From positions 1-42,927 of the forward strand of contig JAIBEY010000057.1 in assembly GCA_019459525.1 (NCBI GenBank): a stretch of DNA of 42,927 nt. Direction: 5' to 3'. The position numbers were made by a program, and so were the translations under genes. The notes under the pieces are model-generated. The model made no database searches. It was not told the DNA's origin and saw only the letters and a program-made list of their open reading frames with translations. Shown piece by piece: positions 12,378 through 32,153 of this stretch. Within the stretch, counting starts at the first letter, position 1. Each line of letters begins with the position of its first letter. This DNA is from Prolixibacteraceae bacterium. Lineage in GTDB: Bacteria > Bacteroidota > Bacteroidia > Bacteroidales > Prolixibacteraceae.

Positions 12378-12410
12378 TTGCAACTTACAACCGAAAAAAG
12401 AGTAGTTTCG
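12378..12410 (+). promoter_or_regulatory. Predicted promoter of the VTC operon
   Basis: TTG at 12378-12380 and TAGTTTCG at 12403-12410 (one mismatch to TAnnTTTG), spacing 22 bp, slightly long. The same TTG is an in-frame possible start codon, but the ATG at 12429 is favoured because it follows this promoter and begins the conserved part of the protein. Confidence 0.4.
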
Positions 12411-12428
12411 CACAAACCAGATAAAACT

Positions 12429-13181
12429 ATGAACTTCATAAAAGATACACTAATACCTTTCAATAAAGTTACTTTATCGGATCTGGATAAAGTAAAACTG
12501 ATGAACAGGACAGATCAGAAATTTTGTCTCCACATCAGCAAATTACCTCTTGTTTTACATGCAATTAGTGCCGATTATTCCCTGTTGGAAATCCAGGATG
12601 AAATATTATTTCAATACGACAATACTTATTTCGATACACTTGATAACCAAATGTACCTTTCGCATCAAAACGGGAAAAGGAACAGATACAAAATCAGAGT
12701 TCGGAAATACGTGCAGACCGACGACAACTTTCTGGAGGTCAAATTCAAAAACAACAAAGGAAGAACGATTAAAGAACGAATGGAAAGACCCGGCTTCGAA
12801 ACCGAGTTTTCGAGCACAGAATTGCAGTTTATTGAGCAGTCATCAGCATTCTCCGGAATTCAACTGGAGCCAAAAATCAGGAGCTTTTTCAATCGTTTTA
12901 CTTTGGTCGATAATGAATTTACAGAACGGGTAACTGTCGATATTTTTCCGGGGTTCAGAAACCACGAAAAAGAAATTACCCTGAATAACCTGGTCATTAT
13001 TGAGGTAAAACAGAGTAAAACAGCAAAACCGGCACTAATAACCCAGGTTCTGAGAGAAAACAAAATAAGCAACCAGAGATTTAGCAAATACTGCATTGGC
13101 CGGTCGCTTCTCGAAGAAAAAATCAAAAGAAATAATTTTAAACCGCTCCTGCTTAAACTCAGGAAAGAATTCGACAATTAA
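12429..13181 (+). CDS. VTC-domain polyphosphate polymerase-like protein
   Basis: A 250-residue protein with the triphosphate-tunnel fold of the VTC family (PF09359); yeast Vtc4 uses this fold to make polyphosphate from ATP. Tunnel-lining charged residues are present: Arg27 and Lys31 (MNRTDQKF), the basic run KRNRYKIRVRK (83-93), ExK pairs in LEVKFK (102-107) and VIIEVKQ (189-195). YFDT at 67-70 and RFSKYCIG near the C-terminus are also typical. There is no membrane segment, so it should act in the cytoplasm, probably at the membrane with the DUF4956 protein whose start follows after 10 bp. Not a PPK1/PPK2 kinase. Product (polyphosphate or another polymer) is inferred from family only. Confidence 0.88.
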   Translation: MNFIKDTLIPFNKVTLSDLDKVKLMNRTDQKFCLHISKLPLVLHAISADYSLLEIQDEILFQYDNTYFDTLDNQMYLSHQNGKRNRYKIRVRKYVQTDDNFLEVKFKNNKGRTIKERMERPGFETEFSSTELQFIEQSSAFSGIQLEPKIRSFFNRFTLVDNEFTERVTVDIFPGFRNHEKEITLNNLVIIEVKQSKTAKPALITQVLRENKISNQRFSKYCIGRSLLEEKIKRNNFKPLLLKLRKEFDN

Positions 13182-13191
13182 ACCATTCACC

Positions 13192-13851
13192 ATGCAACTT
13201 TTAAATTTTTTGTTACAGATTACGCCATCAGCCGAAGACATCAAATTCCTGGGAATCAAACTTATCAATGCCGAAGATTACATCGAACTTCTGACCCGAT
13301 TTAGTTTGAACATGATTGTAATCGCTGTTATTGTTATTGGCTTATATGCCAAACGAAGCAAACGCAAGGATTTCTATTTCACTTTTATTGCCATTAGCAT
13401 TGTCATTTTTCTGCTGTGTTTCCTGCTCGAAAGTGTTAAGATAGAACTTGGTTTTGCCCTCGGGTTGTTTGCCATTTTCGGTATTATCAGGTACCGGACC
13501 GATGCCATTCCGATTAAAGAAATGACCTATTTGTTTGTTGTTATCGCCGTTTCGGTTATCAATGCGTTGGCCAATAAAAAAATCAGCTATGCCGAATTAA
13601 TAACCACCAACCTTTTAATTATTGCCAGTATTTATATTTTAGAACGGATTCTGAATCTAAGGCAGGAAATCTCGTACCGGGTTATTTACGAAAAGATCGA
13701 GAATGTTCAGGCTGGAAAAGAAGATTTACTGCTTGCCGATCTAAAAGAGCGCACCGGCATTAACATCAAACATTTTCAGATTGAACGCATTGATTTTCTG
13801 AGAGATGTGGCATACATCTTTATTTTCTTCGACGTTAATGGCAAAAAATAA
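13192..13851 (+). CDS. DUF4956 integral membrane protein
   Basis: A 219-residue protein with about five membrane segments (roughly residues 37-54, 62-80, 86-100, 111-127, 138-152) and a soluble C-terminal domain (about 160-219). The signature FGIIRYRTDAIPIKEMTYLF (95-114), with conserved arginines at a membrane border, identifies DUF4956. Family members are frequently found beside VTC-domain genes, and here the ATG lies 10 bp after the VTC stop and the next gene begins 3-9 bp downstream, so the three genes form one operon. The ATG at 13192 is chosen because upstream in-frame codons overlap the VTC gene. A role as membrane channel or anchor for the polymer made by the VTC protein is inference. 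Confidence 0.88.
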   Translation: MQLLNFLLQITPSAEDIKFLGIKLINAEDYIELLTRFSLNMIVIAVIVIGLYAKRSKRKDFYFTFIAISIVIFLLCFLLESVKIELGFALGLFAIFGIIRYRTDAIPIKEMTYLFVVIAVSVINALANKKISYAELITTNLLIIASIYILERILNLRQEISYRVIYEKIENVQAGKEDLLLADLKERTGINIKHFQIERIDFLRDVAYIFIFFDVNGKK

Positions 13852-13860
13852 AAAATGGAT

Positions 13861-14520
13861 ATGAAATTTCGAATTTATCTACTTGTATTAGCTCTCTTTT
13901 TTACTTTCTCCGGTTTTTCACAAAGCCAGCCATCAACCTGGGTTGAACTTGAATTCAGTAAAAAAATTATCCGGAATCTAAAAGTCGAATTTAATCCTGA
14001 ATTAAGGATGTTTGGCGGATTTGAGATGGATTCTTATATCCTGGAAGGAGGTCTTTCGTACAAGTTGCACAAATATTTAACACTTGCAGGCTATTACCGG
14101 TTCGAAAACGAATACAATTACCGAGAAAAAAGGCAGATTTACGAATGGGAACCCGCCGGCCGGATTGCGTTCGATGCCAAATCGGGCTTCGAACTCAAAC
14201 GCTTCGACTTTCAGTTTCGGCTACGTTACACCAATGGATCTGATTTTGATGACACCACCGACGATAAAGCTTCTTTTTTCAGGTACCGGGCTAAGGTTGA
14301 CTACGACATAAAAAATAGTAAACTCATTCCGTTCGCATCGGTCGAAGCATTTCACGACCTGATTGCAAAAGATGTTGACAAAATGAGGTACACCGGTGGA
14401 TTAGCCTACTCCATCAACAAAAAAAATGAACTTAGTCTGTTTTATCGCCTGCAGGATTATTCCGAAACCGGTAAAGAAAGTATGAATATACTGGGTATTG
14501 GCTACAGTTTAAAATTCTGA
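13861..14520 (+). CDS. DUF2490-type outer-membrane beta-barrel protein
   Basis: A 219-residue exported protein: signal peptide MKFRIYLLVLALFFTFSGFSQ, then alternating amphipathic beta-strands rich in aromatic residues ending in LGIGYSLKF, the terminal aromatic expected for an outer-membrane barrel. The pattern (STWVELEFSKKI, Y..RFENEYNYREKRQ, LFYRLQDYSETGK) fits DUF2490. ATGs at 13855 and 13861 are both possible; 13861 starts directly at the signal peptide. The gene follows the DUF4956 gene within 10 bp, completing a cytoplasm-inner membrane-outer membrane set. Function of DUF2490 is not known to me. Confidence 0.85.
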   Translation: MKFRIYLLVLALFFTFSGFSQSQPSTWVELEFSKKIIRNLKVEFNPELRMFGGFEMDSYILEGGLSYKLHKYLTLAGYYRFENEYNYREKRQIYEWEPAGRIAFDAKSGFELKRFDFQFRLRYTNGSDFDDTTDDKASFFRYRAKVDYDIKNSKLIPFASVEAFHDLIAKDVDKMRYTGGLAYSINKKNELSLFYRLQDYSETGKESMNILGIGYSLKF

Positions 14521-17172: not shown

Positions 17173-18864
17173 CTAATAACCTGAATTTTGTGTTAATGAA
17201 GAAACACCATCAACTTTTGATAAGTCAATCTGATTTTGTGGAATAGGCCATATTTCATTCTTACCTGCAGTGAATTTTTTACCTCCCAGGTATGATTGAC
17301 GCGGAGCCTCTGTTGTTAAGTAATTATTCATCGTTTCTGCAATAATTCCCCAACGTACCAAGTCAAAATAACGACTACCTTCCATTCCAAATTCCAATCT
17401 TTCTTCCAATCTGATTGCTTTGGTTGCTTCATCTTTGCTTGCAAAAGAAGTGTAAGGTTCTACTTTATATTTAGCTGCCGGAGTCCCATCGTCGAATTTA
17501 ACGACTTCACTACCTTTAGCTCTGTTACGAACCATATTCACATACTTCAACGCATTGGTCATATCATTTTCTTCAGCAGCACATTCGGCACGCCACAAAT
17601 AAATATGAGCCAAACGAATAAACCTGAAATTGTTGGCGTTAACACCAGTAGCCCAGCCAGTCTGAGTGGCTTTTGACTTTTCAGATTTTTTATACAGGCT
17701 CTTCTTGAACAGGAATGGACCACCATTTCCCGGGTCACGAATCCAGGAATTGTCGGTTGGCTGAACTCCCCAATCCAGAAATGGAATTCCGGGACGACCA
17801 ATGCTGTGATCTAACCTGGGGTCAACGGCTCCGGTGTATTCAACACCACCAACTTCCTGACCAGCAGTATTCCAATTTGTAAAATCTGGCAATCCGGTAG
17901 CCTCTACAACTTTAAATGCGTTGGCAAAGTTACGTGACGCCTGGTAAAATCCGCAACAAGTAGATGGCCCTGCTGAAGGGAAATTAAGAGCATCTCCCCA
18001 GCCTCCATTTAATGAACCGTCGGTACCATCGTTAACTGCATATTGAACTTCAAGAATCGATTCAGAATTATTCTGCGAAGCAATCATATAATTATCCTGA
18101 TAGTTAGGCATAAGTGTATATCCTCCATTATCAATAATATCCTGCAGCAGTGGTTTGGCCTCAGCATATTTCTTTTGGAACAGATAAACTTTAGCCAGAT
18201 AGGCTTTGGCGGCCCAAGCTGTAATTCTGGCTTTATCAGTTTCACGACTCTTCAAACTTGGAATGGCTGCTTTTAAATCGGCTTCAATTTCGGCATACAA
18301 TAATTTGTCGTTTTTCACAGTTTCGGGAGCTTCAGTATTCTCGTCGATATAAGGTACTTTGCCAAAAACACGTGTTAACTCAAAATAAAAATGTGCACGA
18401 AGTACTTTAGTCTGAGCTTCGTACCATGCTTTTTTATCAGCATCTAACTGCTCTTCGGTAACAGCTCCTGTTACTTTCAGAATTTCGTTGCAACGAGAAA
18501 TTCCTTCATACATATAGCGCCATTTCGAATCGCAATACTCATTCGTTGGAGTTACAGTAAACTGTTCAATATCATTGATGGTCTGTTGATCCGAGCTGAT
18601 TGATCCTTTGTATGCATCGTCAGATGCTACCGAACCCCATACCCAGTTAGTAATAGATCCGCCCCATTGATTAAAGGCCCAATCGTTGTTATAGTGGCCA
18701 TCAAGCATGGAATAAGCACCTGTCAACAAGGCATTTACTCCTGTTTCACTATAAAATGTATTTATCGAGTTTGATGCTTTTGGTTTAAGGTCCAGCCACT
18801 CATCACTGCATGAGTACAGGAAACCCGCTAGTACCACCAAGCTGAATATCAATATTCTTTTCAT
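17173..18864 (-). CDS. SusD/RagB-family nutrient-binding outer-membrane lipoprotein
   Basis: A 563-residue surface lipoprotein that caps the SusC transporter and binds the oligosaccharide. The signal MKRILIFSLVVLAGFLYSC ends in a lipobox with Cys19, followed by DEWLDLKPK, the common SusD start. An imin-SusD N-terminal domain (about 40-210) with TPR-like helices (AWAAKAYLAKVYLFQKKYAEAKPLL) and the C-terminal RagB/SusD region (about 270-563) ending WPIPQNQIDLSKVDGVSSLTQNSGY are present. The ATG at 18864 is chosen over an upstream in-frame codon at 18891 because it begins the signal peptide. It follows the SusC gene by about 30 bp and is the last gene of the unit. Confidence 0.96.
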   Translation of the reverse strand: MKRILIFSLVVLAGFLYSCSDEWLDLKPKASNSINTFYSETGVNALLTGAYSMLDGHYNNDWAFNQWGGSITNWVWGSVASDDAYKGSISSDQQTINDIEQFTVTPTNEYCDSKWRYMYEGISRCNEILKVTGAVTEEQLDADKKAWYEAQTKVLRAHFYFELTRVFGKVPYIDENTEAPETVKNDKLLYAEIEADLKAAIPSLKSRETDKARITAWAAKAYLAKVYLFQKKYAEAKPLLQDIIDNGGYTLMPNYQDNYMIASQNNSESILEVQYAVNDGTDGSLNGGWGDALNFPSAGPSTCCGFYQASRNFANAFKVVEATGLPDFTNWNTAGQEVGGVEYTGAVDPRLDHSIGRPGIPFLDWGVQPTDNSWIRDPGNGGPFLFKKSLYKKSEKSKATQTGWATGVNANNFRFIRLAHIYLWRAECAAEENDMTNALKYVNMVRNRAKGSEVVKFDDGTPAAKYKVEPYTSFASKDEATKAIRLEERLEFGMEGSRYFDLVRWGIIAETMNNYLTTEAPRQSYLGGKKFTAGKNEIWPIPQNQIDLSKVDGVSSLTQNSGY

Positions 18865-18893
18865 CTTAAATTGGTTTAAATGTTGAAACAAAA

Positions 18894-21800
18894 TTATAAT
18901 GACAGATTAAGACCAAACATGATGGTCTGAGAAGTAGGATAAATACCCTGATCCAAACCATTGTGGCGGTCATTGGTACTACGAATTTCAGGATCCAGGC
19001 CACTGTAAGGAGTAATAGTAAACAGGTTGGTGGCTTGCACATAAAGTCTCAAGTTGCTAACCTTCATTCTTGTAACTAACTCTTTAGGCAAGGAATACCC
19101 AATCTGCAAATTCTTTAATCTAAAGTACGAGCCACTTTCAACAAAACTACTGTTTGGTAACTGGCTGTTTGTATCGTGGGTTTCAGCTATTGGAAGCGTA
19201 ATTTTTGCTCCGCTTTTGTAGCGGGCTTCAGTCCACGATTCATATAAGCGTTCCGGGCTACGGTTACCATTAAACTGGAAGTAGTCGGTCCATCGGCTAA
19301 CATAGTTGATAAGCTCGTTGCCATATGATCCCTGGAAAAACATGGTGGCATCGAAATTTTTATATTGCAGGTCAATGTTTAAACCATAAACCAAATCAGG
19401 ATGTGGGCTACCAATAATTACACGGTCATCAGCATTAATCACACCATCCGCTTTATCCGGGACTCCGTCAGAATTGGTATCCACAGTAAGCTGGTCTTTA
19501 TATTTAAACCTACCTGGTGCATTATAGTCACCAAATTGGGGGTAAGCATTTGCTTCTTCCCAGGTATTAAAAAAGCCGAGTACTTCATAGCCATAAAAAG
19601 AGGAGATCGGTTCACCGGCTTTTGATATGGTATAAATGTTACCACGTTCTGTATCTCCCCAAAGCACTTCTTTTTCATTATCATTCAACTTAATAACATT
19701 GTTTTTGTAATGTGAGGCATTGGCTCTTACGGTGTATTTAAAATCTTTCCCAACTTCACCATGATAGGTCACCATCAGGTCAATACCTTTATTCTCCATT
19801 TCACCAATGTTTACTGAAGGACGTTGAGCATTACCATAAACATGTGGTAACTGAACCGCATAAAGCATATCTGACGTTTTACGATCGAATAAATCGAGGT
19901 TAACTTCCAGTTTATTATCAAGCATGGTAAGATCAACCCCAAGATTGAGCGCAGTTGTGGTTTCCCACTTTGCATTGACATTTCCTAACTTGTTGGTATA
20001 AAAACCCGAGGTCAAGGAATTATCATCACCAGTCATAGGATAATAAGATTGGCTTAAGCCGGTAGTTAAAGTTCCCCAATAGTTGTAGTTATCAACGCGG
20101 TCGTTCCCATTTTGGCCCCAACCTGCGCGTACTTTCAAATCATCAATCCAACTTACACCTTCCATGAATGACTCTTCTGACATTCTCCAACCCAACGAAA
20201 GTGCAGGGAATGTTCCCCAGCGGGTTTGAGATGCAAACCGGGATGAAGCATCACGCCGGACAACACCTTCGAAAAGATATTTACCCATGTAATTGTAATT
20301 TAACCTTCCAAAATAGGAGAAACTTCTCCAGGCAGTTGCATAACCGGCGTTGGCAAGACTTGCAGTACCTACATTCAGGTATCTGTAATCGAGGTCTTCA
20401 GAAAAATAGGAAGCTCTGCCGGCAGTAAATTCTTCATAAACATTGTCAATTGACTCAGAACCGATTATTGCATCAAATGTATGAACACCATTCAAAATGG
20501 TCTTATAATTTAATGTATTCGCCCAGTTCCATTGCAACGAATAACCATGGCCTTCATCTAATCGGTTTGTTGATTTTGCTTCGAAGAATTCAATATCGCG
20601 AATGGTAAAAGTTTTCCAGCGACCATTATTCATATCAACACCAAGTAACGATTTAAATGTCAAATCTTTAGTAAAATTCAGTTGTACGTAGGCATTTCCC
20701 AGAACGCGTAAATCTTTACCCCAATTGTCTTTATTACGGGTTGCATTGGCCACGGGATTAGCTCCGTTCCCCATTGATTCACCTTTAGTTCCGGCAAAAT
20801 TTCCGGCAATATCATAAACCGGGACAATTGGTTGCATACGATAAGCCTGTGACACCACATTACCCTCGTCATTATTGTCGCCAACACCACCTTTACGCTC
20901 AGTGAAGGCAACACTTAATGTCTGGCCTAATGATAACCAATTGGTTAATCTAGCATCAGAATTTGCACGCATCGTGTATCTATCAAATCCTGAATGAATG
21001 ACAACCCCTTCCTGATTAAGATATCCTAAACTAAATGCATAATTGCTATTCTCGTTTCCTCCTGAAATAGATGCATTGTACTCCTGAATGGGAGCCGGAT
21101 TTAAAATCTCGTCATACCAATCGGTACCTTGTTTGTTCGCTTTGGTAATTAAATTAAACGGAGAACCATCATCATCTCTGGCATCATATAACGCTGGATT
21201 TACAAGCGGATCGCCTTCAAATTTTGCTGTTGGAAGAATATAATCAGGAATGGTAACCTTACCATTTGCATCATAAATGTATTGCTTATTCCAGGGGGCA
21301 GTGGTAGGATATTTCAGGTATTTATCGTTCTGATATTCCTGCCAAACCAATTCGCCATATTGCTGGGTATTCAACAAATCGAGTGAGTTTGTGGTACGTT
21401 GTACTCCGTAACGGGCATCAAAAGTCAATTTAGCTGATCCTTTTTTACCACGATTGGTAGTAATAATAATAACACCGTTTGCTGCTCTTGCTCCATAAAT
21501 AGCAGAAGATGAAGCATCTTTCAGCACAGTCATAGACTCAATGTCATTAGGGTTCATTCTGCTCAAACCACCTTCGGTTGGAACCCCATCAACAATATAC
21601 AATGGTGAATTATTATTAATTGTACCAAAACCACGTACCCGAACAGTTGCATCGCCACCAGGAGAATTGTCGTTCACTACAGTTACACCGGCAACACGCC
21701 CCTGTAATCGGGATGCAGCATTGGCGGAAGGAATAGCCTTAATATCTTCCTGAGATACGGTAGATACAGCTCCCGTTACCGACTTCTTCTGCTGCGAACC

Positions 21801-22151
21801 GTAACCTACAACAACCACTTCATCAACACCAATTACATCAGAGAGTAAAGTAATTTTGAAATTTGTTTGATTTCCTATTTCAATTTCCTGTGTTCTCATA
21901 CCTATGTATGAAACACTTAATATTTTAGCACTAGCTGGCCCCGAAAAAGAAAATTTTCCGTCCATGTCAGTTATCGTCCCTGTGGTAGTGCCTTTAACAA
22001 CTACAGTTACTCCGGGAATCGGAGCTCCGTCTTCACCGAGAACAGTTCCAGACAGATCTTTTTGTTGCGCGAAAGTGGTAATCGCTAAAAAGCAGGAAAA
22101 AAACAGCAGTGCCGTCATTCGCCAAAGCCCTTTTGTTTTACTTTTTTTCAT
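18894..22151 (-). CDS. SusC/RagA-family TonB-linked outer-membrane transporter
   Basis: A 1085-residue TonB-dependent transporter that imports oligosaccharides captured by SusD. Order of parts: signal peptide (1-30, ending FAQQ), carboxypeptidase-D-like regulatory domain (about 33-110: LSGTVLGEDGAPIPGVTVVVKG), a TonB-box-like segment (GVDEVVVVGYGSQQKKSVTG), plug domain (about 120-235) and a 22-strand-type barrel ending SQTIMFGLNLSL. There is no extra N-terminal STN domain, so no anti-sigma relay is expected. The start is the ATG at 22151; an in-frame TTG at 22160 is less likely. SusD follows within 30 bp. It has a 510-bp upstream region with candidate control elements. Confidence 0.96.
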   Translation of the reverse strand: MKKSKTKGLWRMTALLFFSCFLAITTFAQQKDLSGTVLGEDGAPIPGVTVVVKGTTTGTITDMDGKFSFSGPASAKILSVSYIGMRTQEIEIGNQTNFKITLLSDVIGVDEVVVVGYGSQQKKSVTGAVSTVSQEDIKAIPSANAASRLQGRVAGVTVVNDNSPGGDATVRVRGFGTINNNSPLYIVDGVPTEGGLSRMNPNDIESMTVLKDASSSAIYGARAANGVIIITTNRGKKGSAKLTFDARYGVQRTTNSLDLLNTQQYGELVWQEYQNDKYLKYPTTAPWNKQYIYDANGKVTIPDYILPTAKFEGDPLVNPALYDARDDDGSPFNLITKANKQGTDWYDEILNPAPIQEYNASISGGNENSNYAFSLGYLNQEGVVIHSGFDRYTMRANSDARLTNWLSLGQTLSVAFTERKGGVGDNNDEGNVVSQAYRMQPIVPVYDIAGNFAGTKGESMGNGANPVANATRNKDNWGKDLRVLGNAYVQLNFTKDLTFKSLLGVDMNNGRWKTFTIRDIEFFEAKSTNRLDEGHGYSLQWNWANTLNYKTILNGVHTFDAIIGSESIDNVYEEFTAGRASYFSEDLDYRYLNVGTASLANAGYATAWRSFSYFGRLNYNYMGKYLFEGVVRRDASSRFASQTRWGTFPALSLGWRMSEESFMEGVSWIDDLKVRAGWGQNGNDRVDNYNYWGTLTTGLSQSYYPMTGDDNSLTSGFYTNKLGNVNAKWETTTALNLGVDLTMLDNKLEVNLDLFDRKTSDMLYAVQLPHVYGNAQRPSVNIGEMENKGIDLMVTYHGEVGKDFKYTVRANASHYKNNVIKLNDNEKEVLWGDTERGNIYTISKAGEPISSFYGYEVLGFFNTWEEANAYPQFGDYNAPGRFKYKDQLTVDTNSDGVPDKADGVINADDRVIIGSPHPDLVYGLNIDLQYKNFDATMFFQGSYGNELINYVSRWTDYFQFNGNRSPERLYESWTEARYKSGAKITLPIAETHDTNSQLPNSSFVESGSYFRLKNLQIGYSLPKELVTRMKVSNLRLYVQATNLFTITPYSGLDPEIRSTNDRHNGLDQGIYPTSQTIMFGLNLSL

Positions 22152-22466
22152 AAATTTCAATGTTTAGTTTGTGATAAATACTTGATTAGAAATAACTTGA
22201 TTAAAGAAAGTCGAATGCGTGACTTCTAAATTCCTTAATTGAAGAGATCTACATAGGCATCTAGTTTATGTGAATAATTAGGTTTTTCTTGTTTACGCAA
22301 ACTCCCTCTGGAATTTGCAGTTAACTAAATGCAAACATTAAAACATGAGACTATAGCCGAAAAGGCCTGAGAAATTTTGGAAAGGACGGATTTATCACAT
22401 AATCATAATATGAAAATATAAAAAATCCGGTCATTTGAAATAACCAGTTTTTCGATCTTGTTTGTG

Positions 22467-22504
22467 TTTGCGTGTGTTAATTAAATTTTGCGTGATTGAA
22501 TTAA
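22467..22504. promoter_or_regulatory. Direct-repeat candidate operator upstream of SusC
   Basis: TTTGCGTG occurs at 22467-22474 and again at 22487-22494, exactly 20 bp apart. The similarity extends to 18 bp (TTTGCGTGtgttAATTAA and TTTGCGTGattgAATTAA, three differences). A third TTTGCGT copy lies on the opposite strand near 22296-22302. Equal-face spacing of about two helical turns suits a dimeric activator; no such regulator is in the window. Confidence 0.4.
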
Positions 22505-22611
22505 CGATACTAAAGTAAAGTAAAATGTAAAGATTTGTTAATATTTAAGTGTGTTAAAGAATATTTTTTCCGGACTAGTAGATTTTAAACTGACTTTTGT
22601 TCAAAAAACAA

Positions 22612-22650
22612 GGGGTAAAAACCAGAACATTAATCTCTGGTTTTTACCCC
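22612..22650 (-). terminator. Intrinsic terminator of the uronate catabolic operon
   Basis: A perfect 15-bp stem (22612-22626 with 22636-22650; GGGGTAAAAACCAGA and its complement), 9-nt loop, and on the minus strand a TTGTTTTTTG tail. It lies 22 bp after the DUF4861 stop and separates the catabolic operon from SusC. Confidence 0.9.
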
Positions 22651-22672
22651 GTAAACAATTAAACTTACTATA

Positions 22673-23947
22673 TTATTCTATCCCAATCGGATGACTTAAA
22701 AGTTCTGCTTCCGAAGAAATGTAAGCTTTAAAATTATCGATATTCTTCCATTTTTCGTTTTCGAGCCCCCAAACGGCAAAGAAATAATGGCGCGCAGGAA
22801 CATCAGCATTGATTTTTTGCGCTACATAATAGGTCTGAGAAATCACGTTACTGAATTTTTTCTCGTCAACTGTTTTGAAGCCCAAACTGTAAAAATCGAT
22901 ATCGGTACTTCGGGCAACTTTGGTTGTTTCGTCCTTTTTCAAAAGGACTCCCATGCCCAGTTCATCGTTATTTAATGATTGTACGTCCAACGTAGCAATC
23001 GAACGATAATCGGCATTTGCCTCAAAATCAACAATCGCTCCGTTTTTAAATTGACTGGTAACAATACCGGTAACTAACTGTTTTTCTCCTGAAAAACCGG
23101 AAACAGTTACATCCGACTGAAACCAATATTTTCCGGGATAAATAGAGATGCGCTCAACTGCCGACAGATTTTGATCGCCCACATGCCAGCCTGTGTACTT
23201 CAGGTCGAAAACAGAGCGAACCGGACCTTCAATTACCTTCTGGTATTCGTAAACATCGGTAGAACCAAGGCGGTGCAGCGAATCATTTTCGAGCAATGCC
23301 AAACCACCAGAACCCACAGAACTCCCGCAATGCAGAATATCCATCCCCCAATCGTTGAGCTTATGGTAATCCGGAATCTCAGGAGTGTGAATCTTATCGA
23401 TGATTAAGCCAGGTTTCAGCTTACCAAATAAATCTTTTACGTTGCGGCAATCGAAATAATTGCGGAAACCCATTTTGTCGTTTTCCCAGCTCACACTTTC
23501 GCCTTGTGCAATAATTTTAAAACTATCCTTGCATGAAGGTGCAAAATACTGATCAACCTCCTGGTAACTATGATCGGGTTGCAAAATTCCCAAACGAACA
23601 TTAGTCCGCTTTTCAAATATTGGATATTCGGCTAAAGCCACATTCTCCACTTCCAGTTTTACTGTTTCCGAAGCTTTGAAATTGAGGCAAAAAACCAGTT
23701 CATCCCATTTACCATCCTTGTCCAGATCATCAACCTGCGATGGAATAGCTTGTCCATTCAGCTTCAGCGCAGGTGCAAAACCATCAGGAACTAAACTAAA
23801 TCGGGTTTCCACTTCGGCCCGTTTAAGGATAATAATTTCATCGGTACGATCAACAGCCACCGGATTCGTTAAAACCAGCGTATTCTTTTTGGTACAGCTA
23901 CCGAAAGCCATCAGCAGCACAGCACCCACGATGAATAACTTTTTCAT
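22673..23947 (-). CDS. DUF4861 family lipoprotein of the uronate locus
   Basis: A 424-residue exported lipoprotein: MKKLFIVGAVLLMAFGSC gives a lipobox with Cys18. The body matches DUF4861 by stretches such as QVDDLDKDGKWDELVF (about 71-86), ENDKMGFRNYFDCRNVKDLFGK and NDWGMDILHCGSSVGSGGLALLE. Family members are common in pectin/uronate utilisation loci, and a role in handling acidic oligosaccharides (carbohydrate-active enzyme or binding protein) is suspected but not established to my knowledge. Its ATG overlaps the KduD stop by 4 bp (ATGA), so the two are translationally coupled; it is the last gene before the terminator. Confidence 0.88.
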   Translation of the reverse strand: MKKLFIVGAVLLMAFGSCTKKNTLVLTNPVAVDRTDEIIILKRAEVETRFSLVPDGFAPALKLNGQAIPSQVDDLDKDGKWDELVFCLNFKASETVKLEVENVALAEYPIFEKRTNVRLGILQPDHSYQEVDQYFAPSCKDSFKIIAQGESVSWENDKMGFRNYFDCRNVKDLFGKLKPGLIIDKIHTPEIPDYHKLNDWGMDILHCGSSVGSGGLALLENDSLHRLGSTDVYEYQKVIEGPVRSVFDLKYTGWHVGDQNLSAVERISIYPGKYWFQSDVTVSGFSGEKQLVTGIVTSQFKNGAIVDFEANADYRSIATLDVQSLNNDELGMGVLLKKDETTKVARSTDIDFYSLGFKTVDEKKFSNVISQTYYVAQKINADVPARHYFFAVWGLENEKWKNIDNFKAYISSEAELLSHPIGIE

Positions 23948-24744
23948 TCAGGTAAATCGTTTTCGCCTTTCACATAACCAAAATTGGCCAGAATACCGCC
24001 GTCAACATAAAGTACATGTCCGTTTACAAAGTTGCTGGCTTTCGAGGCAAGGAACAATGCTGCATTGGCTACATCTTCGGGTTCTCCCCAACGACCGGCA
24101 GGCGTACGGGTCATCACCAAATCGTTGAACGGATGACCGTTTTCGCGGATAGGACCAGTTTGCGCAGTGACAATGTAACCGGGACCAATTCCATTAATCT
24201 GAAGATTGTATTTGGCCCATTCGCAACACATGTTGGCTGTCAAAAGTTTCAGTCCACCTTTTGCTGATGCATAAGCCGAAACGGAGTTGCGTCCGTAAAC
24301 GCTCATCATCGAACACATGTTGATGATTTTACCGCTGCGTTTGGCAATCATATTCGGGGCAACACGTTTCGAAACAATCAGAGGAGCCACCAGATCAACA
24401 TCAATAACCTGCTTGTAATCGGCAATTGCCATATCCAAAATCGGAATACGTTTAATGATGCCTGCATTGTTAACCAAAATATCCACGCTGCCCACTTCTT
24501 TTTCAATATGCGAAATTCCTTTGTCAACATCGGCTTCATTGGTTACATCAAAAACCAACGTAAAAACGTCAACTCCGTCAGCCAGATATTCTTTTTTGCA
24601 GTTAGCAAGTCTTTCTTCACTCAGATCGTTTACACAAATTTTAGCACCAGCTTTGCCCAGCACTTTACCAATGGCCATTCCAATGCCATGAGTTCCTCCG
24701 GTAATCAGGGCTACTTTACCGGTTAAATCAAATAATTCGTTCAT
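23944..24744 (-). CDS. kduD: 2-dehydro-3-deoxy-D-gluconate 5-dehydrogenase / gluconate 5-dehydrogenase (SDR)
   Basis: A 266-residue classical short-chain dehydrogenase. The NAD(P)-binding motif is TGGTHGIG, NNAGI is present, and the catalytic residues are Ser in CSMMS and Tyr/Lys in YASAKGG. The C-terminal segment INGIGPGYIVTAQTGPIREN is typical of gluconate-5-dehydrogenase/KduD proteins. With KduI immediately upstream in the same operon (19-bp gap), the likely reaction is interconversion of 2,5-diketo-3-deoxygluconate and 2-keto-3-deoxygluconate (KDG). Sequence alone does not fully separate KduD from gluconate 5-dehydrogenase; the context favours KduD. Confidence 0.9.
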   Translation of the reverse strand: MNELFDLTGKVALITGGTHGIGMAIGKVLGKAGAKICVNDLSEERLANCKKEYLADGVDVFTLVFDVTNEADVDKGISHIEKEVGSVDILVNNAGIIKRIPILDMAIADYKQVIDVDLVAPLIVSKRVAPNMIAKRSGKIINMCSMMSVYGRNSVSAYASAKGGLKLLTANMCCEWAKYNLQINGIGPGYIVTAQTGPIRENGHPFNDLVMTRTPAGRWGEPEDVANAALFLASKASNFVNGHVLYVDGGILANFGYVKGENDLPE

Positions 24745-24763
24745 ATTCGTTAAATTAAAGTTT

Positions 24764-25606
24764 TTATCGCAATTGGTTGGGTTGTACTACATCCATATCG
24801 GTATAGTCCATATTTTCGCCTGCCATACCCCAAATAAAAATGTAGTTGCTGGTTCCGGCAGCCGAGTGAATTGACCAGTTTGGTGAAATAACCGCCTGTT
24901 CGTTCCCCATCCAGATGTGGCGGGTTTCCTGTGGCTGACCCATAAAATGACATACAGCCTGACCTTCAGGAACATTGAAATAGAAGTAAACTTCCATCCG
25001 GCGACTGTGTGTATGCGCTGGCATGGTATTCCAGACACTCCCGGGACGCAATTCGGTCATTCCCATTTGCAACTGGCAAGTTTCAATCACTTTGCTGATT
25101 AAAAGTTGGTTGATCTGTCGTTCGTTGGATGTTTGTTGCGACCCCATTTGCAGCACATTGGCATCTTTCAGGGTGATGTGACGGGTTGGCAATTCTTTAT
25201 GTGCAGGAGTTGAATTCAGGTAGAAACGGGCTGAAGCAGTTGAACTTTCCGATTTGAAAATGATTTGTTTTGCGCCCTTTCCGATGTACAGAGCCTCTTT
25301 GAAATCGAGAACATACTCCGTTCCGTCAACAACGACCATTCCTTTGGCGCCTACATTGATGATTCCCAATTCGCGACGATCGCAAAAATACGGTGCTTTC
25401 AGCGGATCAATTGTAGTCAGTTCCAACGGGGCACTGGCTGGCACGGCGCCACCAGCAATATAACGGTCGTAGTGCGAATAAACCAGACGGATTTTATCGT
25501 CTTCCATCACTTTTTCGATCAGGAAATTCTCACGCAATTGTGCGGTATCATACTTTTTAACATCCCTTGGATGTGCGGCAAAACGTTCTTCAAAAATGAT
25601 TGACAT
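24764..25606 (-). CDS. kduI: 5-keto-4-deoxyuronate isomerase
   Basis: A 280-residue cupin-fold isomerase that turns 5-keto-4-deoxyuronate (4-deoxy-L-threo-5-hexosulose uronate) into 3-deoxy-D-glycero-2,5-hexodiulosonate. The four zinc ligands known for KduI can be read: His198 and His200 in [15 protein letters not shown], Glu205 in the same motif, and His247 in [22 protein letters not shown]. Length equals the E. coli enzyme (278 aa). It starts 6 bp after the GH88 gene, so one transcript carries the whole route from unsaturated oligouronide to KDG. KdgK and KdgA are not in the window. Confidence 0.96.
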
Positions 25607-25612
25607 GATGTT

Positions 25613-26773
25613 TTATTTTTGGGTGTATTTGTATTTTAATGCTTCCAGATAATAATAATCAGCATAGTTCAGCGGGGTATCCACTTCCGATTTTTTAGGC
25701 ATATTGCCCACACAATGTTTGATCAGGAACCCTCCATTATCGCCAATTTCGGCCAGGTACTCCGGAGAACTTAAACTTGCCATTATTTTCTCAGCCAAAG
25801 TGGCATACTCAGTTTTTCCTTCATCACTAAGTTCGGCCAACATATAAAGCGCCGAAGCGGTTACTGCAGCAGCCGAAGCATCGCGATACGTGTTTGGCTT
25901 GGCCGGATCGTTATAATCCCAGTAGGGCACCAAATCTTCAGGAAGGTTTTTCTGAATGAAGGCAGCAATTTTTTGAGCTGCATCCAGATATTTGGCATCA
26001 CCCGTTTCGCGGTAACATACGGTGTAACCGTACAATCCCCACGCCTGCCCTCTCGCCCACGACGAATCATCTTTCAATCCCTGGTGAGTTTGTTTGGCAA
26101 TAGCTTTACCGGTAATGGTATCGTAATCAATTACATGGTACGAACTCATATCATCGCGAAAATGATTGGCCAAAGTAGTGTTAGCATGAGCAATGGCCAC
26201 ATCGCGGTATTTGGAATCGCCGGTTTCTTTTGATGCCCAGAACAGCATTTCCAGATTCATCATATTATCGATGATAACCGGGAACTGCCATTGTTTCGCC
26301 CAATCCCATGATTTAATACTTCCGATGGTAGAATCGAATCTTGTAATCAGTGATTCCGATGCCTCAATGACAACCTTTTTATATTCTTCATTTTTAGTGA
26401 GGCGGTAAGCGTTTCCATAACTGCAAAACACCATGAAACCCAAGTCATGCGTATTTGTCCGATACTGCACGCCGTTTAGTTTTACGGTATTTTCGGTTGC
26501 TATCTTTTCCCATTTTTTATCGCCGGTCAGTTCATACAGGTACCAATAACTTCCGGCTGGGAAACCGCAACACCAGTCTTTTTTCGTGATCATGGCATAT
26601 TTATCAGCTTCGAAGGTTCGGGGAACCATACTATCATTGGCCGAATGAGTCACCAAATAATCAAGTTGCGAGGAAAGATGACTGACTAACTTGTCTTTCT
26701 GCTCAAAAAGGCTTTTGGTTGCGCAGGCACCGAAAAGAAGGGGAATTGCTAAATAAATGAATAGTTTCTTCAT
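25613..26773 (-). CDS. Glycoside hydrolase family 88 unsaturated glucuronyl hydrolase, lipoprotein
   Basis: A 386-residue (alpha/alpha)6-barrel enzyme that hydrates and releases the 4,5-unsaturated uronic acid left on oligosaccharides by polysaccharide lyases. The two catalytic Asp positions of the family are Asp110 (TNTHDLGF) and Asp169 (VIIDNMMNLEML); WCCGFPAGSYWYLYELTG and ARGQAWGLYGYT are further GH88 signatures. MKKLFIYLAIPLLFGAC gives a lipobox with Cys17, so it is anchored, probably facing the periplasm. The ATG at 26773 is chosen over 26785 because it starts the signal. It is the first gene of the operon directly behind the LacI-controlled promoter. Substrate could be pectin, ulvan, gellan or glycosaminoglycan fragments. 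Confidence 0.93.
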   Translation of the reverse strand: MKKLFIYLAIPLLFGACATKSLFEQKDKLVSHLSSQLDYLVTHSANDSMVPRTFEADKYAMITKKDWCCGFPAGSYWYLYELTGDKKWEKIATENTVKLNGVQYRTNTHDLGFMVFCSYGNAYRLTKNEEYKKVVIEASESLITRFDSTIGSIKSWDWAKQWQFPVIIDNMMNLEMLFWASKETGDSKYRDVAIAHANTTLANHFRDDMSSYHVIDYDTITGKAIAKQTHQGLKDDSSWARGQAWGLYGYTVCYRETGDAKYLDAAQKIAAFIQKNLPEDLVPYWDYNDPAKPNTYRDASAAAVTASALYMLAELSDEGKTEYATLAEKIMASLSSPEYLAEIGDNGGFLIKHCVGNMPKKSEVDTPLNYADYYYLEALKYKYTQK

Positions 26774-26828
26774 GTTGGATGTCATGTTTAGGTTTAACCG
26801 GTACTAAAACCATTACTAAAAGTTAAGA

Positions 26829-28660: not shown

Positions 28661-29671
28661 ATGACGAGATCTATCTGCGCTACTACCAAAACCATCCTGA
28701 TTATCAGTTTCATTCTGGGATGGAGCAGTATCTTGCCAGCACAGGATGTTTATTTCTCTCAATTTTTCCTGAATCCGGTTTATTTGAACCCTGCCTATGC
28801 AGGGACCATGAAAGTTCCGCGTGCTGGTGTTCAGTATCGCAATCAGTGGCCCGGAATGAACAAGGCGTACACCACCTATTTTGCCTCCTTCGATACCTAC
28901 CTCCCCAAAATAACCAGTGGAATAGGAATTTTGCTGTTTAACGACGTGCAGGGTGACGGGATTTATACTGAAACCAGCTTTAAGGTTGCCTACTCCAAAG
29001 AGATACGGATAAACAGAACCTGGACCATGTACGGAAGTATTACTGCCGGGGCACAACTCAATTCGCTCAATTTTAACCAACTCCTGTTTGCAGATGGGTT
29101 GGATCCTATATTTGGCCAACACCAACCCACGGCAGAAACGGTACCCGATAACAACAATCGCCTGTTCCCCGACTTTGGAGCCGGAATCCTGATTTTCAAT
29201 GACAAGTATTTTTTCGGAATTGCAGGTGATCATCTGCACGAACCCGACCAATCCATTTATTCGGATTATTCGCAGATACTCCCGCGCAAATACACCTTGC
29301 ACTTTGAAGTGAACATGCCCTGGTACAGGCCGGGGCACCGCCGGAAATTCTGCACGCTCAACCCCAACTTCATCGCTCAGGCACAAGGCGATGAGCAAAA
29401 TATAACTTACGGATTATATGCCAATCGCAAAGGTATTTCGCTTGGAATCTGGAACCGGCTGACCACCACAAATAGTTCTGATGTCATTCTGATGGCTGGC
29501 TTTATCAGGAAGCAACTTAAAACGGCAATCACCTACGATGTTAACGTAAAAGGCATTGGCCTACGCTCTCACGGTTCGGTTGAAATTTCGATTTCTTATC
29601 TGCTGAAAGATCCGGGCAAAAAGAGCATTTTCCCGTTTTACGAAATCCCGGGAGAATGGGATATCCGATAG
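28661..29671 (+). CDS. PorP/SprF-family outer-membrane protein (type IX secretion associated)
   Basis: A 336-residue outer-membrane barrel of the PorP/SprF family. After a signal peptide (ILIISFILGWSSILPAQ) comes the family start DVYFSQFFLNPVYLNPAYAGT, then repeated beta-strands (GVQYRNQWPGM, GSITAGAQLNSLNFNQLLFADG). Family members bind and retain cargo with type B C-terminal domains at the cell surface after T9SS export, as SprF does for SprB. The neighbour in convergent orientation, 46 bp away, encodes exactly such a type B CTD protein, so the two are likely partners although not co-transcribed. The ATG at 28661 follows a consensus -7 box. Confidence 0.92.
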   Translation: MTRSICATTKTILIISFILGWSSILPAQDVYFSQFFLNPVYLNPAYAGTMKVPRAGVQYRNQWPGMNKAYTTYFASFDTYLPKITSGIGILLFNDVQGDGIYTETSFKVAYSKEIRINRTWTMYGSITAGAQLNSLNFNQLLFADGLDPIFGQHQPTAETVPDNNNRLFPDFGAGILIFNDKYFFGIAGDHLHEPDQSIYSDYSQILPRKYTLHFEVNMPWYRPGHRRKFCTLNPNFIAQAQGDEQNITYGLYANRKGISLGIWNRLTTTNSSDVILMAGFIRKQLKTAITYDVNVKGIGLRSHGSVEISISYLLKDPGKKSIFPFYEIPGEWDIR

Positions 29672-29716
29672 ACCATGAAAAGCACGGCCTCCATCTACTT
29701 CTGCAACATCCAGGTA

Positions 29717-32038
29717 TTACCTCACGAGCATAACTGTTCCTTTTTGCAAATGATCAATACCTTGAACATCTTTATACTTGACAATCCAGACATAAACTCC
29801 GGGTTCGGCTTTTCTTCCGCCAGATAAATTACCGTCCCAACCGGTGGCAATATCTCCGGATTCAAAAAGTGCAGAGCCAACCCGGTTGTATATGGTTAAC
29901 TTGTAATTTTCCTTATCAAGGCTGACAATGTAGGGCAAAAATGTACGGTTTTCAGAAATCTCACTGTCTGGACGAAATGCATTCGGGATGAAAAAAGTTG
30001 ACGGGACTATTTTCACATCCATCCCCAGAGTATCGGTACACCCAAATTCGTTGGACGCTGTCAGCACAACATGGTATATACCCAAATCGGTATAATGATG
30101 TTTGGGAGACACTTCGGCACTTTCCGGTGAATTATCGCCAAAATCCCAGGAAAAGTCAACAGCACCTGCTGTATGATTCGTAAAAGTTATATCCGGATGG
30201 TCAATAGTAGCTACAAGATAATCAGGCGTAAAACTAAGCATTGGCATCCGCACTTCAACATACGCCGTATCCGTTACCTGGCAACCATTTTTATTGGTTA
30301 CAGTCACCCAATAGTTACCGGTTGTTTCAACCCTGAATGTTTTTCCGGTAGAGCCATCCTGCCACAAATAATTCACAAAACCATCTTCGGCTACAATCGT
30401 GTACTCGCCAGACAAACAAACCGTTGTATCTTTCCCCAAACTGGTTTCAGTACGGTCAACAGCAACATAAACACTATCGGTGAGGCTACAACCTACAGTT
30501 GTCTTTCCGGTTACTTTATACCAACCCTCTTCCGAAACAGTAATGCCTGACGTTGTATCTTTAGTACTCCACAAATACCTGTCGAAATAAGAACCCGCAT
30601 CCAGTTCCGCTTCGTCGCCATGACAAATCAGGACTGTATCCGATAAATCTTCGCTTCTAAGGTCGAGCTGAATATCGAGGTTAAAACCTACTCCGTAACC
30701 GTAAGATTCGGTGTTTCCGCTGCTTCCGAAACCATAAATAAAAGCCAGAAACCCGCTATGTATATCGGTATTCCAAAGCCTGTGGGTCCCTTTTGTTGTT
30801 GGAACCTGCGCATAAGAATATTCGGTATTGGGAAAACGTGCAAAACGGGAACTGATGTTTACCCCATCCAGCATCATATTGGGCACTTCGGCTGTCTGGG
30901 TAATGATATTTACAAAAAATATACTGTTGATTTTGCCCGACTCGTAAGCTTCAAACGTTACGTCGTTTATTTTCTGCGATATGGGACTCAGGATGGTCAT
31001 AAACGGGTCGCCAACGCCCGAATTACCATCGGCCCTTTGCGACCGGCAATACTGAGCCAGCAACACTTTTTTAGAAGACATGATCCGGCTGGCCTGACTG
31101 CTTGAAAGTTCAAACTCGTGAAACTGACCACGTTTAAGCGTAACAGTTACATTATTCGCTTCAATCCTGACAACCGTACCATCTTCGGCAGCCAAAACGC
31201 GATACGTATCTTTTATTCTTGATTGCAGCGGGACTACATAAAATTCCTTTCCCCAGGTGCTGGTTGGAGGAATCTGCTCATAAATATGATCGTAAGAGGC
31301 ACTTACAAAACCAGAAACAGGTATGGTTACCGCTTTTGCGCCTGAAAAAAAGGCAATCGGTTTATTGGCAGTTACAAAACTTCCGGTAAGATCTTCTTTG
31401 CCCGAAGTATCGGTATTTCCGGCCTGAACCTGGTAAGACTGCCCTTTATTTAAGGTGACAGTAAAAGGTACATTCGCCGGTTTTCCCCGATCAGTATTCC
31501 GACTTGGAGTTATTTTTACCGTGGTATTATCTGCGCTGGCAACAACCAAAAATTCACTGTTCGACTCGTTACCGGTTGTATATCGAGGGGAATAGCACAT
31601 TGCAAAATATTCCTTACCCAACGATTCGGTTGGATAAATAACAGCAACGTCCGACGATTGTGTCCGGTAATTAAGGGCATAAACATTTACAGAATTGGTT
31701 GCTTTAAGGTGGATTCCTTTATTTTCAACACTTTCCGATCCGGTAGCCTCAACCAATTTATAGTCAATGGGGATGGGAATGGAGGAATTGGGACCAACAG
31801 TATAATTCCCTATCAACGTTTCGGTCGGGCCGTAGGTAACCGTAATCTGCGCCCCCAGCCTGGAGGTCACCGTAATTTCAAGATAATGCTCGGCCCCGCT
31901 ACTTCGGTTTTGCATCAGTCCCAGCCAAAAATCAGTTCCTTCTGTTGAATAGTGGCATGGATCCAAGATCTGACTTTCAGCCAAATAGGACATAAAAGAC
32001 AACAATAAAAATCCAATCGACACTATCCAATTTCGCAT
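29717..32038 (-). CDS. Secreted IgGFc-binding/PKD protein with type B T9SS sorting domain
   Basis: A 773-residue surface or secreted protein. Signal peptide (MRNWIVSIGFLLLSFMSYLAESQ), an IgGFc-binding-like N-terminal region (about 30-450: TDFWLGLMQN, VYALNYRTQSSDVAVIYP, YDHIYEQIPPTSTWGKEFYVVP), two short Ig-like segments with Cys (DTVLICHGDEAELDAG; DTTVCLSGEYTIVAEDG), a PKD domain (about 605-675: FSWDFGDNSPESAEVSPKHHY) and a C-terminal gliding-type/type B sorting domain (FIPNAFRPDSEISENRTFLP ... LTIYNRVGSALFESG ... GVYVWIVKYKD). Likely role is adhesion or a surface matrix. The ATG at 32038 is preferred to an in-frame TTG at 32047. Convergent with the PorP/SprF gene. Confidence 0.9.
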   Translation of the reverse strand: MRNWIVSIGFLLLSFMSYLAESQILDPCHYSTEGTDFWLGLMQNRSSGAEHYLEITVTSRLGAQITVTYGPTETLIGNYTVGPNSSIPIPIDYKLVEATGSESVENKGIHLKATNSVNVYALNYRTQSSDVAVIYPTESLGKEYFAMCYSPRYTTGNESNSEFLVVASADNTTVKITPSRNTDRGKPANVPFTVTLNKGQSYQVQAGNTDTSGKEDLTGSFVTANKPIAFFSGAKAVTIPVSGFVSASYDHIYEQIPPTSTWGKEFYVVPLQSRIKDTYRVLAAEDGTVVRIEANNVTVTLKRGQFHEFELSSSQASRIMSSKKVLLAQYCRSQRADGNSGVGDPFMTILSPISQKINDVTFEAYESGKINSIFFVNIITQTAEVPNMMLDGVNISSRFARFPNTEYSYAQVPTTKGTHRLWNTDIHSGFLAFIYGFGSSGNTESYGYGVGFNLDIQLDLRSEDLSDTVLICHGDEAELDAGSYFDRYLWSTKDTTSGITVSEEGWYKVTGKTTVGCSLTDSVYVAVDRTETSLGKDTTVCLSGEYTIVAEDGFVNYLWQDGSTGKTFRVETTGNYWVTVTNKNGCQVTDTAYVEVRMPMLSFTPDYLVATIDHPDITFTNHTAGAVDFSWDFGDNSPESAEVSPKHHYTDLGIYHVVLTASNEFGCTDTLGMDVKIVPSTFFIPNAFRPDSEISENRTFLPYIVSLDKENYKLTIYNRVGSALFESGDIATGWDGNLSGGRKAEPGVYVWIVKYKDVQGIDHLQKGTVMLVR

Positions 32039-32153
32039 AATTTTCAAAGCAATTCGTTTAAGAGAATGCCAGGCATTGGGGTTTCTTTATTTAAGGCGAA
32101 GCACTTGCAGTATCCGTTCTACGGTCTCCCCTACCATGCTCTCTGCCCATTCC

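Follow-up and report, generated by a model that had tools for sequence, protein, structure and literature searches.

A window of 42,927 nucleotides from a Prolixibacteraceae bacterium (contig JAIBEY010000057.1), the whole stretch of DNA analysed here, carries an operon of three genes encoding, in order, a VTC-domain protein, a DUF4956 membrane protein and a DUF2490 β-barrel (Table 1). It is close to certain that the three genes form a functional module. What does this module do? We propose, with somewhat less than even confidence, that the genes may form the core of a module, spanning the cell envelope, for the synthesis and outward passage of a polyphosphate-type polyanion. Observed are the operon itself, its conservation, a barrel subfamily dedicated to it and the joint occurrence of the components; the enzymatic product and its transport are inferred. 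The VTC protein, in which the residues of yeast Vtc4 are intact, would polymerise phosphate from nucleotide triphosphate in the cytoplasm. DUF4956, as its near-universal pairing with VTC suggests, would tether the enzyme to the inner membrane and pass on or receive the chain like the yeast VTC membrane helices, and the barrel, judging by its subfamily and fold, may be the route by which the chain, whole or in short pieces, crosses the outer membrane. Where the module is more complete, a secreted CotH-like kinase would act at the cell surface together with a small lipoprotein, and in a distant long type an HlyD-like adaptor would perform the envelope step.

The association of the genes was assessed in 198 genomes of the phylum (Bacteroidota) of at least 90% completeness; sampled genomes carry G numbers and loci L numbers. 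VTC occurs in 37 of the 198 and DUF4956 in 59, and every one of the 37 VTC genomes contains DUF4956. A DUF4956 gene lies on the same strand within 1 kb of 39 of the 42 VTC matches and within 5 kb of 41, the remaining match being a fragment of 54 positions; this adjacency is far above chance. Two VTC types can be distinguished. The window operon is of the short type, which has 17 copies spread over 16 genomes and DUF4956 above 150 bits; the 24 long-type copies have DUF4956 below 75 bits. DUF2490 adjoins 13 of the 17 copies of the short type, where it either follows DUF4956 or precedes VTC (in G158 a CotH gene sits between barrel and VTC), and outside the window it adjoins 12 of 16, against about 0.01 expected. 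Within the genus of the window, 20 of 22 genomes encode VTC. A further set of named loci was found by DUF4956 similarity, with the best 80 kept and 78 classified, and is skewed towards the window's relatives; L098 and L110 were left out because no DUF4956 open reading frame (ORF) was called. Among the matches listed, to which all counts for named loci given here refer, VTC lies near DUF4956 in 69/78 loci and DUF2490 in 57/78; where at least 2.5 kb is available on both sides, the counts are 53/57 and 42/57, respectively. The triplet is conserved, and the observation that the sequence-only reading had named as fatal to it, that the three genes are rarely adjacent elsewhere, is therefore not what we find.

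The linked DUF2490 barrels are a subfamily of their own and a real third partner. All 67 linked barrels in our alignment A3 match PF10677, and a midpoint-rooted tree of 106 barrels sets these 67 and four others apart from 35 unlinked sequences. Two of these four are from G041 and one each from G045 and G064, which are the short-VTC genomes, three in all, whose pair has no barrel next to it. We scored the 139 DUF2490 sequences among the matches listed (13 adjacent, 126 elsewhere, weak-scoring ones lying outside the set) with a subfamily profile trained on 54 barrels from the named loci, whose species may overlap with the genome sample; the 20 unlinked training barrels are among the strongest Pfam matches. 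At a 40-bit margin, picked after the scores were seen, a VTC-type barrel is found in 16/16 short-VTC genomes versus 1/182 others (G178), and in the independent part of this comparison in 3/3 versus 1/182. Scoring by bare sign instead yields 23 positive genomes, the 16 short-VTC genomes and seven others with margins of 0, 2, 4, 14, 21, 29 and 59. Linked and unlinked barrels are also separated by R82 (66/67 versus 0/20) and by an acidic residue at position 64 (76% versus 0%); one of 19 further unlinked barrels (L178, genome G182) has both R82 and E64 yet is placed in the other clade. In G041, one VTC-type barrel is part of a CotH-lipoprotein-barrel run and a second is next to a lipoprotein, and in G045 the barrel lies beside a lipoprotein away from VTC-DUF4956; the module can thus split into two co-occurring half-operons.

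The model of the window barrel (predicted local distance difference test, pLDDT, 91.9; 12 strand elements) is a confident β-barrel with a signal-like helix, which fits the DUF2490 outer-membrane family (TC 1.B.81) and agrees with the earlier assignment of the third protein to the outer membrane. Its best structural neighbours are VhGalP, NanC and KdgM, with a slight lead over other barrels. In contrast to these acidic-oligosaccharide porins, to which it is 8-16% identical, the window barrel has no match to the KdgM family (PF06178) at E 0.1, and the likeness is in fold alone; a KdgM Pfam match is present in 4/67 linked barrels. DUF2490 has been described as a family of putative porins whose function is yet to be established (PMC4827864).

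How closely does the VTC protein resemble the yeast polymerase? A joint alignment with Vtc4 was read at ten of its tunnel positions, K458 being taken from PMC4641920. Vtc4 K200, R264, R266, K281 and K294 correspond to window VTC K31, R90, R92, K105 and K115, and R361, R373, E426, K428 and K458 correspond to R156, R167, E192, K194 and K220. The basic tunnel residues, the metal-binding glutamate and the catalytic lysine (K220, equivalent to K458) are kept, as the sequence-only reading had supposed for the tunnel, and each of the ten positions is retained in 81-82 of the 82 sequences of the short type and in 17-18 of the 18 of the long type. Profile comparison relates the short type to Vtc4 at E 2e-4 (1e-4 with 82 sequences) and to Vtc2 at E 5e-5, and the long type to Vtc4 at E 8e-24. 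By Pfam, neither an SPX nor a DUF202 domain is found; above cut-off, the enzyme contains VTC only and its partner DUF4956 only.

The AlphaFold2 model of DUF4956 (pLDDT 81.7; predicted template modelling score 0.65) comprises five long helices (27-55, 60-80, 86-102, 108-126 and 133-154) followed by a C-terminal beta-alpha-beta-beta domain (159-214), and R100, R102 and T103 are invariant in 19 sequences. We note two further observations on this family. In L048 and L049 (genomes G186 and G049), a DUF4956 of the window type occurs without VTC and is followed by a 341-residue protein without a Pfam match and by a purple-acid-phosphatase-like metallophosphoesterase, the Pfam assignments referring to the L048 copies only. 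L054, titled Candidatus Neomarinimicrobiota, and L079, titled Euryarchaeota, have copies that share 63% and 59% identity, respectively, with the window DUF4956; misbinned contigs and transfer are both possible.

The earlier reading took the three-gene operon as the system. The triplet stands, but it is not the whole system, because CotH and a small lipoprotein recur as partners and, in the distant long type, an HlyD-like adaptor takes the place of the barrel. Outside the window, 5/16 short-type pairs have a CotH-like gene within 5 kb on the same strand, against an expectation of about 0.08 (55 CotH matches in 15 genomes), and so do 20/78 named loci by a five-seed model, all 20 confirmed by PF08757; we counted CotH by Pfam or the five-seed model because the 64 matches of an iterated model are partly doubtful (e.g., a 300-residue ORF in L039). 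The lipoprotein-like family, of about 135 residues, has an invariant cysteine after a hydrophobic start, an EGxGGTS motif and carboxypeptidase-regulatory/prealbumin-like Pfam matches that are weak and below cut-off; it is nearby in 28/78 named loci. A profile search of the window's genome, run without a positive control, returned no match to it. Similarly, a small secreted protein of about 137 residues with RHS/MORN-like repeats below the Pfam cut-off is present in 15/78. In the long type, a homologue of HlyD-like adaptors (about 355 residues) stands beside VTC-DUF4956 in 19 of the 20 loci examined (of 24 pairs), split into two ORFs in L133; of 18 aligned adaptors, 7 match HlyD_3 and 5 match HlyD_D23. 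Both VTC types are thus accompanied by an envelope component, which differs by type. Beside the module, L057:9749-11612 and L064:4143-5944 contain a histidine kinase and a LytTR response regulator, and genes of similar size and order are present in L058 and L061.

Several observations weigh against synthesis and export by the module. Inward arginines are a family-wide feature present in unlinked DUF2490 too, and the mean net charge is higher in the unlinked (+9.2, n = 20) than in the linked barrels (+6.8, n = 67; Mann-Whitney P 0.010), so that pore charge failed as proof of a polyphosphate channel. In L051 and L052, whose DUF4956 is 74% identical to that of the window, the stretch from DUF4956 to kdsA contains no barrel ORF, and of 13 congeneric loci all have DUF4956 and 10 a barrel match (one in two frames); one of the three without a match stops at a contig edge. 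Furthermore, a VTC deletion in Streptococcus intermedius still aggregated, with no defect reported in the part of the study concerned with that strain (PMC12345266). Separately, we note that L051:7307-7700, between DUF4956 and kdsA, resembles by eye a decayed, stop-interrupted DUF2490 start.

These observations bear on an alternative that we consider unlikely but deserving of weight, namely that VTC, coupled to DUF4956, makes polyphosphate that gets no further than the inner membrane or periplasm, while the barrel, with CotH and the lipoprotein, has a different task on the surface, such as moving another anionic oligomer. It would accommodate the close relatives in which the pair lacks an adjacent barrel, the travel of the G041 and G045 barrels with lipoprotein (once with CotH too) away from the pair, and a charge pattern that is not specific to VTC. 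The tracking of the pair by the barrel subfamily across the sampled genomes argues against it.

Somewhat less probable still, the VTC protein could be a tunnel-type phosphohydrolase or signalling enzyme rather than a polymerase, and DUF4956 a regulator of phosphate physiology of the MgtC/ACT kind. The activities of tunnel enzymes are diverse, and among those compared only Vtc4, with its catalytic K458, made polyphosphate; where Vtc4 has four basic residues that guide the chain away, a hydrolase sharing its fold has glutamates (PMC4641920). In our mapping of these acidic-patch positions, D29 of the window protein is acidic, as this alternative would predict, but R27, K115 and K194 are basic and K220 matches K458. 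With three of the four chain-exit positions basic, polymerase activity is favoured, short of proof. Likewise, the DUF4956 protein SIR_1592 has been described as an MgtC transmembrane domain plus an ACT domain (PMC12345266), but our comparison gives this no support: PF02308 is not matched at E 0.1, and the hhalign probability is 0.3% against a shallow, five-sequence MgtC set.

An improbable third alternative is that the module supplies a phosphoryl donor, with exported polyphosphate feeding a secreted CotH-like kinase that modifies surface proteins. The corresponding surface phosphorylation pathway, in which VTC polyphosphate arriving via DUF4956 and the barrel (or the HlyD-like adaptor) would be the donor or the transferred group for CotH-like kinases and their lipoprotein partners, is in our estimate equally improbable. 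Outside the cytoplasm such a kinase would lack an obvious supply of ATP, CotH recurs beside the pair at the frequencies given above, and C. glutamicum and M. acetivorans match CotH, VTC and DUF4956. Against this, all four CotH matches in the window's genome lie away from the operon flanks, and Bacteroides ihuae has matches for VTC, DUF4956 and DUF2490 with none for CotH. We know of no use of polyphosphate as a donor by a CotH-like kinase. Finally, that DUF2490 is a chance neighbour, conceivable for a family found in 70/198 genomes with up to seven copies in one, is very improbable and was rejected on the adjacency counts, the tree and the subfamily scoring.

The proposed polyphosphate export module resembles the yeast VTC complex, which couples polyphosphate synthesis to translocation (PMC10657179), in its tunnel domain, its matching catalytic residues and the pairing of enzyme and membrane protein; unlike that complex, it lacks SPX and DUF202 domains by Pfam, has DUF4956 as its membrane partner and includes an outer-membrane barrel. 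With Gram-positive pel clusters, where CotH, a polyphosphate polymerase and DUF4956 form a published trio (PMC7112168, PMC12345266), it shares the enzyme and membrane families and the CotH partner, the union of the three being also a point for the phosphoryl-donor alternative. With DUF4956 or CotH deleted, S. intermedius aggregated less than half as much in one medium and its Pel levels changed, and the three-gene arrangement is stated, where that study discusses its distribution, as not found outside pel (PMC12345266). The operons described here differ in their added barrel and lipoprotein and in having no contiguity with pel genes. Neither PelG nor DUF3492, which we take to be PelF, is matched in any of the 7 genomes searched, the window's included; the CotH/VTC/DUF4956 trio thus occurs beyond pel. 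Two of the three families also occupy neighbouring genes in Bacteroides thetaiotaomicron, where BT3498-BT3499 (DUF4956 and DUF2490) are listed together, without a function in that listing, in an iron study (-7.6-fold under iron depletion, P = 0.175, not significant; PMC10434189). A search of the open-access literature, which leaves preprints and most subscription papers outside its scope, returned no paper on DUF4956 together with VTC, three on DUF4956 and two on DUF2490. As far as the searches made here reach, novelty appears to lie in the barrel subfamily, the lipoprotein, the splitting into half-operons and the exchange of barrel for adaptor.

At the locus itself, gaps of 10 bases (VTC to DUF4956) and 3 bases (DUF4956 to DUF2490) separate the head-to-tail genes, whose earlier coordinates and family assignments agree with the ORF positions and Pfam scores. 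The flanks are housekeeping genes, a RarA/MgsA-type AAA gene upstream and, 79 bases downstream, KDO-8-P synthase (kdsA). The source genome (5.54 Mb, the window being its contig C40) has a single match each for VTC, DUF4956 and DUF2490. The single predicted promoter proposed for all three genes found no support beyond chance in a scan, which gave 6 sigma-70-like sites against 7.4 expected in shuffles; TAGTTTCG, similar to the -7 box of Bacteroidota, is a weak candidate. Nor does the argument from PPK carry weight: none is present among the 20 window ORFs scanned, as the sequence-only reading had said, but 15 of the 16 short-VTC genomes (the exception is G134), the window's included, encode PPK1, as do 180 of the 198 overall; in the window's genome it lies elsewhere. 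A role of the VTC operon as a PPK replacement was rejected on the same count. Of that reading, the conserved triplet, the intact residues and the barrel stand; the shared promoter lacks support, and the PPK argument and the triplet as the whole system do not stand.

Table 1. Operon features in the window and loci of recurrent partners
Feature	Position or loci	Strand	Details
VTC-domain protein, 250 residues, predicted cytoplasmic tunnel enzyme	12429..13181 (ATG 12429, stop 13181)	+	PF09359 94.1 bits, cut-off 23
DUF4956 membrane protein, 219 residues	13192..13851	+	PF16316 172 bits, cut-off 30.6
DUF2490 β-barrel, N-terminal signal-like helix, 221 residues, VTC-linked subfamily	13855..14520	+	PF10677 76.9 bits, cut-off 29.8
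TAGTTTCG, candidate promoter element (Bacteroidota -7 type) ahead of the VTC start	12403..12410	+	Single pattern match in 258-base upstream stretch; weak
Small lipoprotein directly upstream of VTC	L046, L047, L068, L069, L078, L080, L082, L085, L086, L090, L096, L099, L101, L115, L118, L121, L127		
RHS/MORN-like small secreted protein directly upstream of VTC	L071, L073, L077, L089, L106, L107, L114, L116, L117, L120, L123, L129		
HlyD-like adaptor beside long-type pair	L135, L137, L147 and 16 other loci		

Elsewhere in the window, positions 17173-26785 hold a polysaccharide utilisation-like region (TonB receptor, SusD-like protein by eye, KduI, GH88, DUF4861 and a short-chain dehydrogenase), whose gene content suggests uronate breakdown, and positions 28661-32047 encode, on the opposite strand, a PorP/SprF-type type IX secretion protein and a large IgGFc-binding/PKD protein with a CHU_C sorting domain.

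The exit of long polyphosphate from cells has been called uncharacterised in a passage on amoeba (PMC10657179). If our proposal is correct, bacteria would possess, beside PPK, a second and membrane-coupled polyphosphate route built for export of the polymer, and a single explanation would cover what DUF4956 and one DUF2490 subfamily do. The CotH/VTC/DUF4956 association is widened beyond pel clusters, and the small size of the operon allows gene-by-gene testing.
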